64,000 bases of DNA, from positions 17,550,046 through 17,614,045 of the forward strand of contig NC_053400.1 in NCBI RefSeq assembly GCF_016859285.1. The letters run 5' to 3'. The DNA comes from Xiphias gladius. Taxonomy: Eukaryota > Chordata > Actinopteri > Istiophoriformes > Xiphiidae. Within the stretch, counting starts at the first letter, position 1. Each line of letters starts with the position of its first letter. Under the pieces are notes generated by a model. That model was not told the origin of the DNA. It saw only the letters and a program-made list of their open reading frames with translations, and searched no databases. Made by a program: the position numbers and the translations under genes. Shown here one piece after another: positions 5,801 through 14,800 of this stretch.

Positions 5801-8800
5801 TAATCATTCTACATATTCATATGCTGGTAAGTGGTTCCCTGTCTAACCTCCAGGGAACATGATGAGAGCGTTCTGTAGCATCTGGTCAGCTTTGCGTCTT
5901 TGTTTGTCACTCTCCTCAGGATCCATATCTTCCTGCTGACTGAGATGGTATTGGCAAAGTGCTGTGGAGAATGCAAAGTTTGGCAGCTGGGACAGATTTC
6001 TGTGCTCCTGAAATGCAAAAACAAACAATTTCTGTATCAGACTGAAAAGTTAACTTTGAAATTCAGTATAAAATCACATCTAAATACACATATATGCACA
6101 TGATGGCAATCTTTACCTCCCAGTCTTCATATAATTGGAGGAGAGACTGGTACTCTCTGGAACGCAGCATCAGGAAATCGATGAGCAGGAGCATGCAAAG
6201 TGGGTCAGAGTCTGTGTCCAAACTAATAAGAGTAGCAGACAAACCACAAGCAAATGATTACTACAGGCACTTGACCAAAAAAACAGGCAGACCAAATATC
6301 TGAATCCAAGCACAACTCAAGTCTCATCCCACACTCAGTGTGGAACATAAAAAACAAAAACTCTTAACCTTTCATAAACATTGCTTGATTCTTATAAGGC
6401 ACTGCTGTTCATAGTTGACATTCATTTTAAATTTTGATGTTTACACATTTGTGTGAAATAAATAACACATCAAAAACCACAAAGCATCAAAAAGGTCACT
6501 CTTCTGCTATTGGCTTTTAGTGTAAATTTTGAAGCTTAAGCCACTGATTGACGGAAGTAACCATATAGTGGCTTTTTTCCAAGTTGTCGGTCTCTTGTAC
6601 ACAAACTGCTACTGACAATGACATGAAATAAGTTAATATTGCTGGTTTCCTTGAATGCCCAGTACAATGTATTTAATCCTATCTGGGCATTGCATGATGA
6701 TACAGAATATAGTTTGTGTTCAAAAACCAAGGGAATAAAAATAAAATTATTCACTCTTCCCTCTAAAACAGTGGATTGACAGTGTTAATCATATCATACA
6801 GTATATATGTGAGACAGTTCTTTAAACAATGCTTTTTAAGATTCTGTTTTCAATCATTTTGCCATTTTAAGCAGTGATTCAATCACTGCTGGTTGGTGAG
6901 GGACAGCTGTCAGTTTTTATTCCCAAACTGCTGCCCTACAAAAGGACCAGACCATAGCTGTCATGAAGTCAGGAAGCCAGAGTTTGATGAAAATCCTAGA
7001 TAAGCATTGACCATTATATGGACAGGCTGTAAAGCTCAAGCTTTGGCAGACTGATGGAAGCAGTGTGTGGGATAACAGGCCTCTGAGTGTGTATAAAGCT
7101 TTATGTAATTGGTATCTGTACCAGCATGACATGGGAGGTATTATGTTGAGATATGAGATTTAAACACCTACACTGATTGTTTCTGGAATTTATTAGTACT
7201 GTAAATGTAAATTATTTTATCAATTAAATTATCATCATCACACACATTATCTTAGATTAGCCTGTATTTCACTGTCACTTTTAGACAGTATAATAAATGG
7301 GGAAAAACATTTGAATGCCTAAATTACAATTACCTCCTCGTGGTTGTATGCTTCTGCCAACCAGTCAAGTTGCAGTTTACATCCATGTCTGTCCAGACTC
7401 ATAAATTGTAATATACAGTCAGACCGAAAGTATTTGGACAGTTACACATTTTTTTGTTCTTCAGGTTCTCAGCTTCAGTAAATTTAATTTGAAATAAAAT
7501 AATGGATACTACATTAAATTGCCGAGTCTCAGCTTTAGTTTCAGTAGGTTTGCATCAGTACAGAAAGAACTTTGTGGGAGATATAGTCCTTTAAACAAAT
7601 TGCCCAAATTTCAGGGTTTCAAAAGTAATTGGACACTTTGCTACTAAATGTTTCTCGGTCAACTGTGTGTCGTTTCAACGTTAGTTCCTGCACAAAAAGA
7701 AAACTCACACGTGGCTCAAAGTTGACAGAGTTGAAAGTTGCAATTTAGATGTAGGTGGAGTCTCTTAATATGAGCAGTGAAGAAGTGACCATGCAAGTCA
7801 AGAAGGTAATTATGATGCTCATAAAAAGCAAAAATCTATCAGAGATATCAAAAGTAGTTAGTCTGCCAAAATCAGCAGTTGGGTACACTCTAAAAAAAGC
7901 AGGTGTGTACTGAAAAACTAGAAAATGACAACCTGGTAGACCGAGGAGCACAGATCTTGTGGAAGAGCAGAAAATCATTTGCACGGTGAAGAAAAACCCC
8001 TTTATGACTGCAGAGCAAGTCAAGAACACTCTCCAAGATGTAGGCGTATATGTTTCCTTGTCAATGATCAAGAGAAAGCTTCATGACCATAACTGCAGAG
8101 GATTCACCACAAGATGCAAACCCCTGGTAAACCTCAAAAACAGAAAGGCCAGGCTACAGTTCACAAAAACACACAAAAAGAAACCGGTAGAGTCCTGGAG
8201 TTCCCAAAGAGAGTCCCAAAGTTCTATGGACTGAAGAAACAAAAATCAGCCTCTATCAAAATGATGGAAAGAAGAAACTGTCTGAGAAAAAAGGAACAGC
8301 CCATGACTGAAAGCCACAACCGCATTTGTCAAACATGGTGGTGATTGTGTTATGGCTGAGGCATGTATGGCTGCCAATTGAACTGGTACACTGGCATTTA
8401 TGATTTCACTGCTGACAGGAGCAATAGGGTGAATGTAGAAGTATACAGGAGCATTCTGTGAGCTCAGATTCAGTCAACAGCATCACAACTCATTGGACGA
8501 CATTTCATCATTCAGCAGGACAACAAACTTAAACATACAGCGAGAGCAACCAAAGAGCTTTTCAGGGTGAAGCGGTGGAATATGCTTGACCAACTATGCT
8601 TAATAGTTGAGTTAACAGTCTCTGAAGAATATCTTCAGACTCTGAGGATTGCTCCCACTGGTTAATTTACTATTTTTGTTTAACTAGCAGGCCATGTGAT
8701 CCTATGTAATACTTTTTAATGTGATGTCAATGTGATTTTATGAACAGAGTACTGGTCAGTGATAATAGAGTAGATAAGTTAGTCATAAAGAGATCAGGGA

Positions 8801-11800
8801 CATATTGACTGTAACTGAGGTAAGAGCTATGTTATTGGTTTACCTTTAAATGGAGAAGCTTATGGGTTTTTCTGTATACATTACTTATAAAATTCTTACT
8901 GTTTCCCTTCAACTCTATAACTTTTCCTTTCCCAGAGCTCAAGCTTCTCCCTTTTTTACCTCAGGATCAGTTTGCAGTACTCCAAAGCCGTCCGTGGGCA
9001 TCCTCTCTTTTCCAGGAACATCATGTGCTTATAAAGAGCAAGATAAAATGCCCTGCAAACAGAAATTATTGAATAATTATATTCCTGAGTCCTTAAAACA
9101 GCATTTAGGTTATGAATGATAATTACGATCCAGCTGATGCCTCACAAAAGTGAGGAGTCTAACAAAAGCCAGAAAAGAGGAAAAAGGAGCAACCAACCTG
9201 TTTTCTGGTCTCAGATAATCAAGCCTGCTGGTACCTGAGGTAAGGCTGAATAAAGGGTGAAAAGCACACTCAAAGCTGTACAAGGCCCTTTCTTAAAAAA
9301 GAAAAAAAAAGCAAAGAAAGAAAGAAAGAAAGAAACATATGAGTAGTCATAGTTAAAAAATGAATTTCTTTCACTGAGAGAACAGTACACTGTGTAGCAT
9401 GTCTTTCTTCTCTGTCTTGTGTTAAAGTTAATAATAAATTAGACAGGAATGAAGACAAATGTCCTTTGTTAATGTATGCCTCTGGTCTTCTACATAAACT
9501 ATTTTAGCTGTCCAATCACAGAAAAGGCCTATGATAATAAACCCAGTATTGTGCTTTGCATGAGGCATGAACCTTGACTTTTTCCACAATGGCTGTTTTG
9601 TTGATTTACAGTTCACAAACACACTTTGACACTGAGTACTAAAATAACAACAATTATTTTGCCTAATAATGTGACAAAGAGTGGGAATCATCTGTGATTT
9701 GATTACAGTACTTTATGCATCTTAAACCAAACAACCAAAAAGCACCAAAACAAGCTATGAGATTGGCTCGAATTTTTGGATGTGCATGGTTATTATTTTA
9801 AATGGACTGATCACTGGGTTTCTTTAAAATTAAAAATGTACTTATTTCTATTTATTTTTCAGATTATTTCTCCATTATTTGCAAGCATGCCGCTTCCCAC
9901 TAAGCTATAGATAGTATATTTAATCAACATCTGAGAACTTTTATTAAAGAAAACTTGAGGAATTTGATTTGCTTGCCATTATGTTATTGCTTACCAACTA
10001 ACAAGAAAATATGTAAACAACAACATTATAAGTAACAGATTTGGTATGTGACTGATATTTTGTATGATGACGTGTAGTTCAATACATTTAACAGTGATAC
10101 AATTGAAATGCATTTATAATAGGAATACCAAATCATGCTGACTTTGTTGTAACATTAAAATGCTTAAAACTGGGCAAAGGGACAGATAGGGTCATGATGA
10201 AAAAACAGACTTGGACGAAAAAACTGCAGTCATGTTTTTTCATGTGTATGCCAAAATCTTGTGTCTATAAAAGCATAAAAGAAGGAGCATGTGTATTAAG
10301 CTGGCTACAATGGCAAAGCCAGACTTGCTACACTGAAGTTCAACAAATCTGATATTGATATTTATATACCAAGTAAGTCTCTTCTTGAGCCAGGAAAAAC
10401 TCAGCATTCAGCTCAAACCACTAATTTCTACGTTCAATATTTGGTCACTATCTTAAAGATAGAAATCTTCATCATAAACTTAATAAAACAAATAGTCTCT
10501 GTTTGCCTTCAAGCCACATACATTGATTGCACTTTAACCAGAGCCCCAGACTAACCTTTCCTCTGGTAGCATTGGTGCCACTAACTTTTTCAATTGGTTG
10601 CACCAGTGCATGTTTTGGTCGCACCCTTTTTTTGGTACAGCATGGTATTAATAAGTGACTTTGATTTCTGAGGAATAGTTGTCTTAATATTAATTTTCCT
10701 CCGTTGAGCGATTACTCTCATCTAACCTCTAAAAAGAAGTTACTGTTGTCATGCAACTTCAAAATTTCAAGCTTAACCTGGTAACAAGTTAAGAGTTGCC
10801 TGCAATGGATGGGCCACATTGCCCAAAATACACACACGGCATAACATTCCCCTCATACCAAACCATGGGTACTGCGTTAGCTATTATGGTAGAAAGTATT
10901 ACTCTGTCCTTTTCTATGGCTCAGTTGGTCTCTCCCTGCAGCCTGCACTCTCATTATCAGTTGTGTCTGAGTCGGGACCTCTCGTTGGCTCTCCCTCTCC
11001 ACCAGCCTCCTTCTCTCTCTCTCTCTGCATTTTGTTTTTTTAACATAATCAGCTATAGACCCCTTCATCTTTCGAGCAGCACAGTACCCTTGCCGGAGGG
11101 GCAACAACACAGTCTAATGATCGTCCTGTATCCGCACGAATGCGACCACGTGAAATTTTAACTCGCACACTCTCAAAAAATGGTCGCATATTCAACCATT
11201 TTGGATGCAGTCTGGACCCCTGTCTTGAACAGATTCTGGTAAAGTATAGTGAATCCCTGGGTATGATTCTAAAACCTGCTTATCAGTTTGGCTTCTGGCT
11301 CATTACTGGTACTGATATTACCCTAAACACATTTTCAGTCTTGTCTTTGGTTTAGAATTCATGTAATCTAAGGAAGGAGCCCTTGATCCTCACCAATGAG
11401 GTCCCTGGCCATCTCCTGATCCTCCTGTATGCGGCAGACATCAGAAAGCTGCAGCAAGGAGTCAATGTGGTAAGGGTTAAGTTGTAGCAGGGCCTGGAGG
11501 AAAAAAAAAAGGGACAATGGTCAAATTGACAGAGATGGACAAAGATACAAAGTCTGAATAAAGAAAATTCTTTCAACAGAAGAATGCTGATTACAATACA
11601 AGATATGGGTCAAAATTTAATAAAAATGCATCCACACTGATCATTTGGTGACACCTTCTCTGCAAGATCATAGATTTGATATTAGATTTTTTCCACACAT
11701 TTTCTGCGAGGCTGGTTTGTCAAAACATAGTTAAAACCCAATGAGGATATTTTAATTGCAGTTGTCTATTAAGCAGCGGGTGAATTTTTTTTTTTACCAC

Positions 11801-14800
11801 AATGTTGTTGGGATCCATGGACTCAACAGCATCCAGGAACTTGAACTGTACTTGTTGGTAGTCCCGACTGTGCTCAAAAGTGAAGTACTGAATGCCATCC
11901 TTTGAATGCAGCAAAGTCATTGAGATTCCTGTGGAGACGTCAAGCACCGTTAAAAACAACAACACAAGAAAGATGCAACAGGGTGATACAAGGTGATGAT
12001 ACAGTCCAGACCATAAATATTTGGACAGTTACACATTTGTTTTGTTCTTCAAACTCTGAGCTTAAGCACATTCAAGTTGAAATAACATAATGGATACTAC
12101 ATTAAAGTGCCAAGTCTCAGTTTTAATTTGAGCAGGTTTACGTCGATATTGCAATACAAGATATGGGTCAAAATTTTAAAAAATGCATCCACACTGATTC
12201 TTTGGTGACACCATCTCTGCAAAATTGTAGATCTGATTTTACATTTTTTTCACATATTTTCTGTCAGGTTGGTTTGTCAAAACATAGTTAAAACAAAATG
12301 AGGATATTTTAATTGCAGTTGTCCATTGAGGAGTGGGGGAATTTATTTAGTTGTTTTTTTTTTAAACCACAATGTTGGTGGGATCCACGGACTCAACAGC
12401 ATCCAGGATGTGTGGGGTGTGGCAGATATAGCCTTTCTGACACATGGTGCCCACAGCTTAGAGGTTCAAAAGTAATTGGACAGATACACATGCAGTCAAA
12501 CAAACTCATCATATTTGATATTTTGTGGAAAATCTTTTTAAGTCAATGACTGCCTGAAGTCTTTGGCCAACAGACATCCCGACACTTTGTATCTTCCCTG
12601 GTGATGCTCTCACAGAGCTTCACTGTAGCCAGCTACAGCTTTTGCTGTGACTTGAAAAACCCGTACGGGACTTGCTGTGCAGTCATAAATGGGTTTTTCT
12701 TCACCATGCAAATGATTTTCTGCTCATCCACAAGTTCTGTGCTACTCGGTTTACCAGCTCATTTGACATTTTCTAGTTTTCCTATACACACCTGCTTTTT
12801 AGAGTGTACCCAAATGCTGATTTCGTCAAAACAATTACCTCTGACATCTCTCACATAGATTTCTGCTTTTTATGTGCCTTATTATTATGTTCTTCCCTTG
12901 CATGGTCACCTCTCTACACCTCAAATTGACAGACAACTCCACCTCAATCTAAATGGCAACTCTCAATCAATTTTGAGAAAACGTGTGAGCTCTTTTGTGT
13001 GTGAACATTGAAACAACACAGCCAAGTGTAGCCAAGTGTCCAGTTATGTCTGAACCCATAAACTTTGGGCACTATGTGTTAAAAGGGGTAAAAAAACAAA
13101 ACAAAAACAAAAACAAATATGAATTATTACGTATTACATATTTCAGACCATGATTATTTGTTTTCTGTTTGCATTTTGTGCCTACCAACATTTGTTAACG
13201 GGACTCAAATAACTGTATATCATGGCTTCTCATGGTGTGCCATGGTTGATCAACGGAATCAATCACAGAGAGTTTTATAACAAGATGCAAGACAACCTAG
13301 ATATTAGCGTTGATGTTACACTGTTATAACATCATAGAGATGTTATGAGTGGTGACGTCAATAGTGTTAGAGTAACAGTTATAAGAAATTTCGGCAAAAT
13401 TTCTCAGCAAAATCAGTCAGCCAATGTCTGAAATACTGTACTTTGAGTGCCGATGAGGCTGGGTTTGCCACTTTAACAGCTACCTAAGGAGACATTTGTG
13501 GGAAAAAAATGAAACCCAACCATATCATTAACAACTCACAGAAAGATTACACAATGGTGACTTTCAGTGTAAACACAATGAGGCAGTTTTTATGATGACG
13601 TCAGTATAACAAAAGTAACATTCATCCTACAGAATACTTGGTAAAAATATTTAGTGCTACTACGGTAGTTTAAGGCTCTCACGATTGAAAAACCATTGCT
13701 CATGCTTCCTTCAGACTAAGTGCTTGGGGTTGTTTAGGTGCTAATCAGGTTGAATTATGTGTAATACACAGAATATATAAAGAACATTGAATTCCTATCA
13801 TTTGCTGTATGAAAGGCTGCATACTGATATGATAACTTAATGTCACTAAATGTGCTTATAAAATTTCATGAAACTGAATGTGAATTTACATGGAAAGCAG
13901 CATTTAAAGAGATTCTCTTCATTTGTGTGTGTATGCGTGTGTTTTGGTGTATAAATCTTAGACCAGTGGGCCAACACAAAGCTCAAAGAGTTTTCATTTT
14001 AACACAACATATCAAGAGAAAAACAGGGGTCAAGTGGGGTCAAACTAAATAATATTGTACATACTGTCTTTTTTGACTGTATTATTAGTCCAGCAGCTCA
14101 TTTTATCGACAGAGGACAATCATTAAAACTGACAAACAGTCCCTTTTAGCTTGAAATCATACATTTAAAAAAGTGCAAGCTATAATTCAGATGACTGTAA
14201 AGGAAAAGCCTACCTGGGCGGCTGAAGCGAGGCCAGCTGTCCTTGGGACTGGTCATCCAGGTGCTACGGTGAAACTGTCTGTTTCTCTGTCGGGGTCTGT
14301 GAAGAATAAATAAAACAAAACAAAAAAGTAGCACAAGAATATACTGAATACATACAGACAGAAGATCTGAGCCATCTAATTTCAAACAATCTCACAAAAT
14401 GTTTCCTTTTCTTTTACCTTTGATCCCCGAGAACGGCTCGAGCCCCAAAATATCTCTTCAGCTCCGTCTCTGGATTGAGATTCCTAATGAATTAACACAG
14501 AAAATAACAGGCTAATTGACAATGCGGATCAGTTGAGGAAAATATAGTCCAAGGAAAAAAATAGATCCTGTTTGATTTTGATGTTCTGGACATGTCAGTC
14601 CATGTCTGCTCTAGTTTCTACAACACTAATGCAAACAAATCAAAGCATATAGGGGCAATGTTGATAAGTTGACTGATAACCATATTGAACAAATAGTACA
14701 CATATGCTTACTTACTTAAGTAATTAATCATTATGATTCTGGCTGTCCGTCCAAGCTTCATAGATTGTGAATGCCACAAACCAAATGTACAAACCAAAAC

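Follow-up and report, generated by a model that had tools for sequence, protein, structure and literature searches.

The window, a stretch of 64,000 nucleotides from Xiphias gladius (C1:17550046-17614045 in a genome of 690.8 Mb and 1298 contigs), carries the gene tcf25 on its minus strand together with two copies of one Tc1-like transposon family. The tcf25 exon of concern here, labelled exon 7 in an earlier description made from the letters alone (the sequence-only reading), occupies 11798-11928 on the minus strand and is recognised by a Pfam match and by its splice sites, an AG acceptor before it and a GT donor after it, both read from the sequence. The translation of 11798-11929 matches PF04910 (E 1.4e-7), the exon encoding the beginning of the Pfam Tcf25 domain, and all 7 matches to this profile in the genome fall at one locus, C1:17555177-17561929; among solved structures, the exon had no useful match (best E 0.84).

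Tc1/mariner elements of the IR/DR type have a TA beside a terminal CAGT, and an outer and an inner direct repeat in each terminal repeat; the left and right ends of the family consensus obtained here show TACAGT and both direct repeats. Copy 1 (7414-8640, plus strand), identified by alignment and Pfam, has an uninterrupted left terminal repeat and a decayed transposase region, in which the open piece 7929-8231 matches HTH_Tnp_Tc3_2 (E 1.3e-16), a Tc1-type transposase. Copy 2 lies on the minus strand in three parts: (i) the outer part of the right terminal repeat, beginning TACAGT, at 12000-12147 (85% identical to copy 1 and aligned with 20 and 29 family loci); (ii) the rest of the right end, including the inner direct repeat 12465-12482, at 12417-12646, delimited by genome search and alignment; and (iii) the 5' part, comprising the beginning of the transposase region and the left inner repeat, at 12669-13086 (76% identical to copy 1 8021-7588, reversed). 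Block by block, 12000-12139 corresponds to 7414-7551 of copy 1 (85%) and 12418-12482 to 7573-7635 (77%). The sequence-only reading was right to see a Tc1-like element here, but this extends to about 13086 rather than 13075, runs on the minus strand and has lost its left outer arm: nothing of it is present beyond 13086, and an outer-arm query matches within the window just at 12001 and 7415.

By alignment to copy 1, the 5' part alone remains of the copy 2 transposase. Between the right end and this part lies an internal deletion join (12647-12668), 22 unaligned bases that are spanned by 0/22 and 0/47 BLAST pieces from two sets of family loci, with right-end matches mostly stopping at 12646 and left-part matches mostly beginning at 12669. 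The deletion is large, is not seen in the other fetched copies and forms a second, separate repair scar in the same element. Copy 2 looks like a non-functional relic; its internal deletion and the lost left arm are losses separate from the event described below.

A tcf25 segment within the right terminal repeat of copy 2

Between the outer and inner parts of this terminal repeat lies a segment of 261 bp (12148-12408, plus strand) that is a copy, in direct orientation, of 249 bp at the tcf25 locus (11590-11838, plus strand). This donor segment consists of the last 41 nt of the exon and 208 bp of the downstream intron. As the sequence-only reading had claimed, the two align end to end on the same strand, with a BLAST identity of 85.1% over 262 columns when gaps are counted (297 bits) and of 89.9% over aligned bases (25 differences in 248), most indels falling beside a poly-T tract. 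They form a direct repeat with an offset of 558 bp, about 310 bp lying between them. In a nucleotide search of the own genome, which skips simple repeats and very common words, the insert matched two places at E values up to 10, namely itself and the donor (E 7.1e-79); the idea that it is a dispersed repeat or a multicopy pack element is accordingly unsupported.

The direction of copying is read from what the two segments have kept. In the insert, the exon part carries 2 changes in 41 nt, both altering an amino acid (M to V, N to T), and the intron part 23 changes in 207 aligned bases, which is the expectation if the copy alone drifts in its exon part and thus points from gene to transposon. 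Since the donor has Pfam support as an exon and carries splice sites, whereas the copy is decayed, we read the direction as tcf25 to transposon, and the opposite course is ruled out by the same donor exon. The proposal that a piece of host exon entered a transposon at close range therefore stands, the donor being about 310 bp away. Its wording, that the piece was "acquired by a transposon", is overstated: the element is truncated, part of its transposase region is lost, and only one loaded copy was found in the genome.

The copied exon end (12350-12376, minus strand) retains its GT, reading GTGGTTTAA where the exon has GTGGTAAAA; the next bases are TT in the insert and AA in the donor. This GT is a possible weak cryptic 5' splice site, placed in the intron upstream of the real exon. 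The insert looks inert. That it instead acts on the gene, being transcribed with tcf25 and offering an additional 5' splice site as well as a direct repeat at an offset of 558 bp, through which it would tune splicing or allow loss of the exon by recombination, we consider highly improbable.

Whether the insert belongs to copy 2 or to the family is decided by the other family copies. We fetched 20 loci through the outer arm and 29 through the right inner part, 49 loci at 48 places (L023 and L058 being the same element); these are best-scoring loci, since each search scored the best 40 of its candidates (of 573 and 890, and of 2002 in a third search described below), and they were picked for likeness to copy 2, which pulls their consensus towards it. 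The insert occurs in 0 of the 20 (E 1e-3) and 0 of the 29 (E 1e-4), hence in 0/49 of the fetched, best-scoring loci, and a family consensus containing the segment, a possibility set down beforehand, is ruled out. The distance between the outer and inner blocks (homologues of 12147 to 12417) is 12 nt in 15 of the 26 right-end copies in which it was measured and 7-19 nt in 8 more, the blocks overlapping or being shortened in the other 3; three of the 29 copies, having no adjacent outer block, were left out. The same distance is 269 nt in the window copy, that is, the insert and a few bases, so that the insert accounts for the wider spacing, as proposed. With one family right end as query, 40 long matches among 43 (one being the query itself) cross the region and cover about as much of the genome as of the query, among the best 40 of 2002 candidates, and are thus without an insert of this size. 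Because the outer and inner blocks neighbour each other across the family, those of copy 2 are parts of one terminal repeat: two independent insertions at 12001 and 12465 are ruled out, and the family copies show the empty site of a terminal repeat that existed before the insertion. Among the family copies examined, the insert is specific to copy 2.

Junctions and relative age

We read the joins by eye, the few bases concerned having been aligned differently by the program. The family sequence across the join site is GGTTTACATCAATATAGAAAGAACTGTGTGGGAGATATAG, and the site itself is ATCAATATAGAAAGAACTGTGTGGG, from which the window copy retains GTCGATAT(T) to the left of the insert and TGTGTGGG to its right; its joins read GGTTTACGTCGATATT (left) and CCAGGATGTGTGGGGTGTGGCAGATATAG (right). 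Between the breakpoints the element lost about 5-10 nt, the figure varying with the side to which shared bases are counted. The sequence-only reading had proposed looking for microhomology at both junctions, and some is found. At the left join, donor and element have AT in common; this becomes ATT should the precursor have carried ATATTG, a form seen in 3 of the 29 copies. Near the right join, GAACT is common to the donor (CCAGGAACTTG) and the element (AAAGAACTGTG); the copy is without the AC, so the strict match is GA with a 2-nt loss, and the 5-bp match requires a later loss of 2 nt. In 20,000 random joins, a match of at least 2 bp arose per junction with a frequency of 0.17, one of 3 bp with 0.065 and one of 5 bp with 0.008. 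Against such chance levels the microhomology is weak by itself; it agrees with template switching and is no proof of it.

The element sequence beside the right join contains an imperfect 7-bp tandem repeat seen by eye, GTGTGGG GTGTGGC (12410-12423). The 29-copy consensus has a single GTGTGGG, the second copy appearing in no row of the alignment, and the repeat may have arisen as a by-product of the repair that made the insert. A search for inverted repeats that could account for breakage at this position gave three weak pairs (14-16 nt, 81-93%), all of them away from the breakpoint; the remaining inner arms of copy 2 (12432-12482 and 13037-13086) pair at 78%, likewise away from it.

Copy 2 differs from the family consensus by K 0.121 (95% interval 0.096-0.148, 791 sites), a divergence that includes any differences the element already had on landing, and the intronic parts of donor and insert differ by K 0.132, or 0.066 per lineage (0.041-0.095). 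The ratio of capture to element divergence is 0.55 (0.33-0.84), with separate intervals in that analysis. For the right end only, set against the 29-copy consensus, the values are 0.094 (0.063-0.129) for the element and 0.065 (0.041-0.094) for the capture; here the intervals overlap, and the capture dates at or before the element's age in 8.5% of 3000 bootstraps. This timing could be biased by gene conversion between donor and insert, which would let the insert appear younger than it is. A previous estimate for copy 2, K 0.187, was dropped, having counted misaligned bases at the junction and the terminus. By point estimates, the element is older than the capture.

Among the sampled copies, the closest of 406 right-end pairs differ by K 0.047 and the next by 0.124. 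The closest pair (L047 and L052) lies on contig C7 about 67 kb apart, which suggests a local or segmental duplication rather than recent transposition. With a family copy as query, none beyond itself exceeds 92% identity among the best 40 of 2002 candidates; younger copies may exist among the candidates left unscored. The sampled Tc1-like family is old by these measures and looks inactive; the capture probably came after transposition, with the family largely or wholly silent by then.

Origin of the insert

From the donor, the direction of copying, the single copy in the own-genome search, the empty site in the fetched family copies and the structure of the junctions, we infer a break, a template switch and the following order of events. 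Long ago, a Tc1-like element would have entered the tcf25 intron that precedes the exon, and decayed there. Later, a break or a stalled replication fork would have affected its right terminal repeat at a point between the two direct repeats, outer and inner; the repairing strand would have switched to DNA about 310 bp away and copied some 250-260 bp comprising the end of the tcf25 exon and the intron next to it, before returning to the element a few bases past its exit point. The outcome would be a single-copy, direct-orientation templated insertion, Pack-TIR-like in kind. We favour this account, a break or stalled fork in an old element filled by a template switch to nearby DNA and hence transposition-independent gap filling in cis, with a probability of about 0.78.

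Tandem duplication of the 558 bp from 11590 to 12147, followed by a deletion of about 310 bp that took away the duplicate of the outer arm and of the remaining exon, would also yield the direct orientation and the observed order; the junction of the duplication would survive as the left join (12147 to 11590), and GAACT would supply the short direct repeat for the deletion. This course, however, needs two events to produce a near-clean insertion with about 5-10 nt lost, and no second outer arm is left behind, the outer arm matching only the two sites in the window given above. We regard it as the main rival, but as unlikely.

The sequence-only reading had spoken of excision or breakage, followed by gap repair with nearby chromosomal DNA as filler. 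Breakage fits what we find; excision by the transposase, with abortive repair, is not supported as the trigger. Filler from nearby DNA is known from the gap repair of P elements (PMC8277862), and the internal deletion of copy 2, unseen in the other fetched copies, is itself a feature of abortive gap repair. However, that deletion lies elsewhere in the element, at a distance of about 240 bp. When excision is followed by abortive repair, larger losses and breakpoints toward the termini are expected by the account in PMC8277862, whereas here the breakpoints are internal by about 150 nt and separated by about 5-10 nt, with the terminal repeat intact on both sides. The family copies, moreover, look old and the family inactive (all but one of the 406 right-end pairs have K of at least 0.124, and identities reach at most 92% among the best 40 of 2002 candidates). 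The likeness to P-element gap repair is in the nearby chromosomal filler; in the work described in PMC8277862 the transposase was artificially activated, and at our locus there is no sign of excision. A break or fork, a switch and a return explain the insert and its junctions in one event; excision is not needed, and we judge it very improbable. Lastly, capture elsewhere or earlier, with the loaded transposon then landing beside its donor, is scarcely credible: transposons can move captured DNA, as multicopy Pack-TIRs do (PMC8277862), but a single loaded copy was found in the genome, a landing so near the donor (about 310 bp) would have to be coincidental, and the capture appears younger than the element (less clearly so in the right-end analysis).

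Relation to known captures

Templated insertions made by microhomology-mediated template switching, FoSTeS/MMBIR or polymerase-theta end joining require no transposon. One study (PMC4423477) is said to concern rice transposons and filler DNA. The junctions described here fit FoSTeS/MMBIR and polymerase theta alike and cannot separate these pathways, whose templated insertions, the subject of PMC8421209, are similarly local, direct and two-junction, with short microhomology. Our literature searches on fish Tc1 capture and on P-element filler gave nothing that we judged closer than the Pack-TIRs of Tan et al. 2021 (Nat Commun 12:4280; PMC8277862). That survey reports 370 Pack-TIRs in 100 animal genomes, mostly single-copy, with 115 of them in TcMariner elements; among 281 unique cases, the donor is no more than 15 kb away in 56.9%, microhomology occurs at a breakpoint in 67.6%, and the breakpoint gap has a median of 4.6% of the element length. 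The distance of about 310 bp between our donor and insert agrees with the cis bias found there. Its authors favour transposition-independent gap filling. Their pipeline requires both element termini, a filter aimed at recent, unambiguous cases.

Against the Pack-TIR definitions given in PMC8277862, the locus reads as follows: (i) between parts of one TIR element (12000-12147 and 12417-12646) stand 261 bp of non-TE sequence, within the range of 100-5000 bp; (ii) there is one donor, hence a unique parent, of 249 bp for an insert of 261 bp, a length ratio of 105% where 80-120% is asked; (iii) of the two termini, the left outer arm is missing beyond 13086; (iv) identity is 89.9% over aligned bases in a non-BLAT alignment, next to a BLAT-based threshold of at least 90%; and (v) the Tc1-like copy 2 starts about 160 bp from the right end of the donor, where no TE is allowed within 100 bp of the parent. 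With the single-copy Pack-TIRs, as that source portrays them, our case shares non-TE sequence held as a single copy in an old element of TcMariner type, a cis donor well under 15 kb away, little element sequence lost and short microhomology; it differs from them in having its insert inside a single terminal repeat, in lacking the other terminus and in an identity just under 90%. The capture fits a Pack-TIR-like origin, and it stands outside the strict set of PMC8277862 because copy 2 lacks one of the two termini which the filter demands.

Taken together, copy 2 offers a readable example of an old transposon gaining host sequence, most likely by repair alone, in which a donor that is partly a constrained exon, some 310 bp away, establishes which way the copying went. 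The class for which 370 were reported in the survey cited (PMC8277862) gains one fish case by it, one that suggests that a filter on both termini misses older cases.
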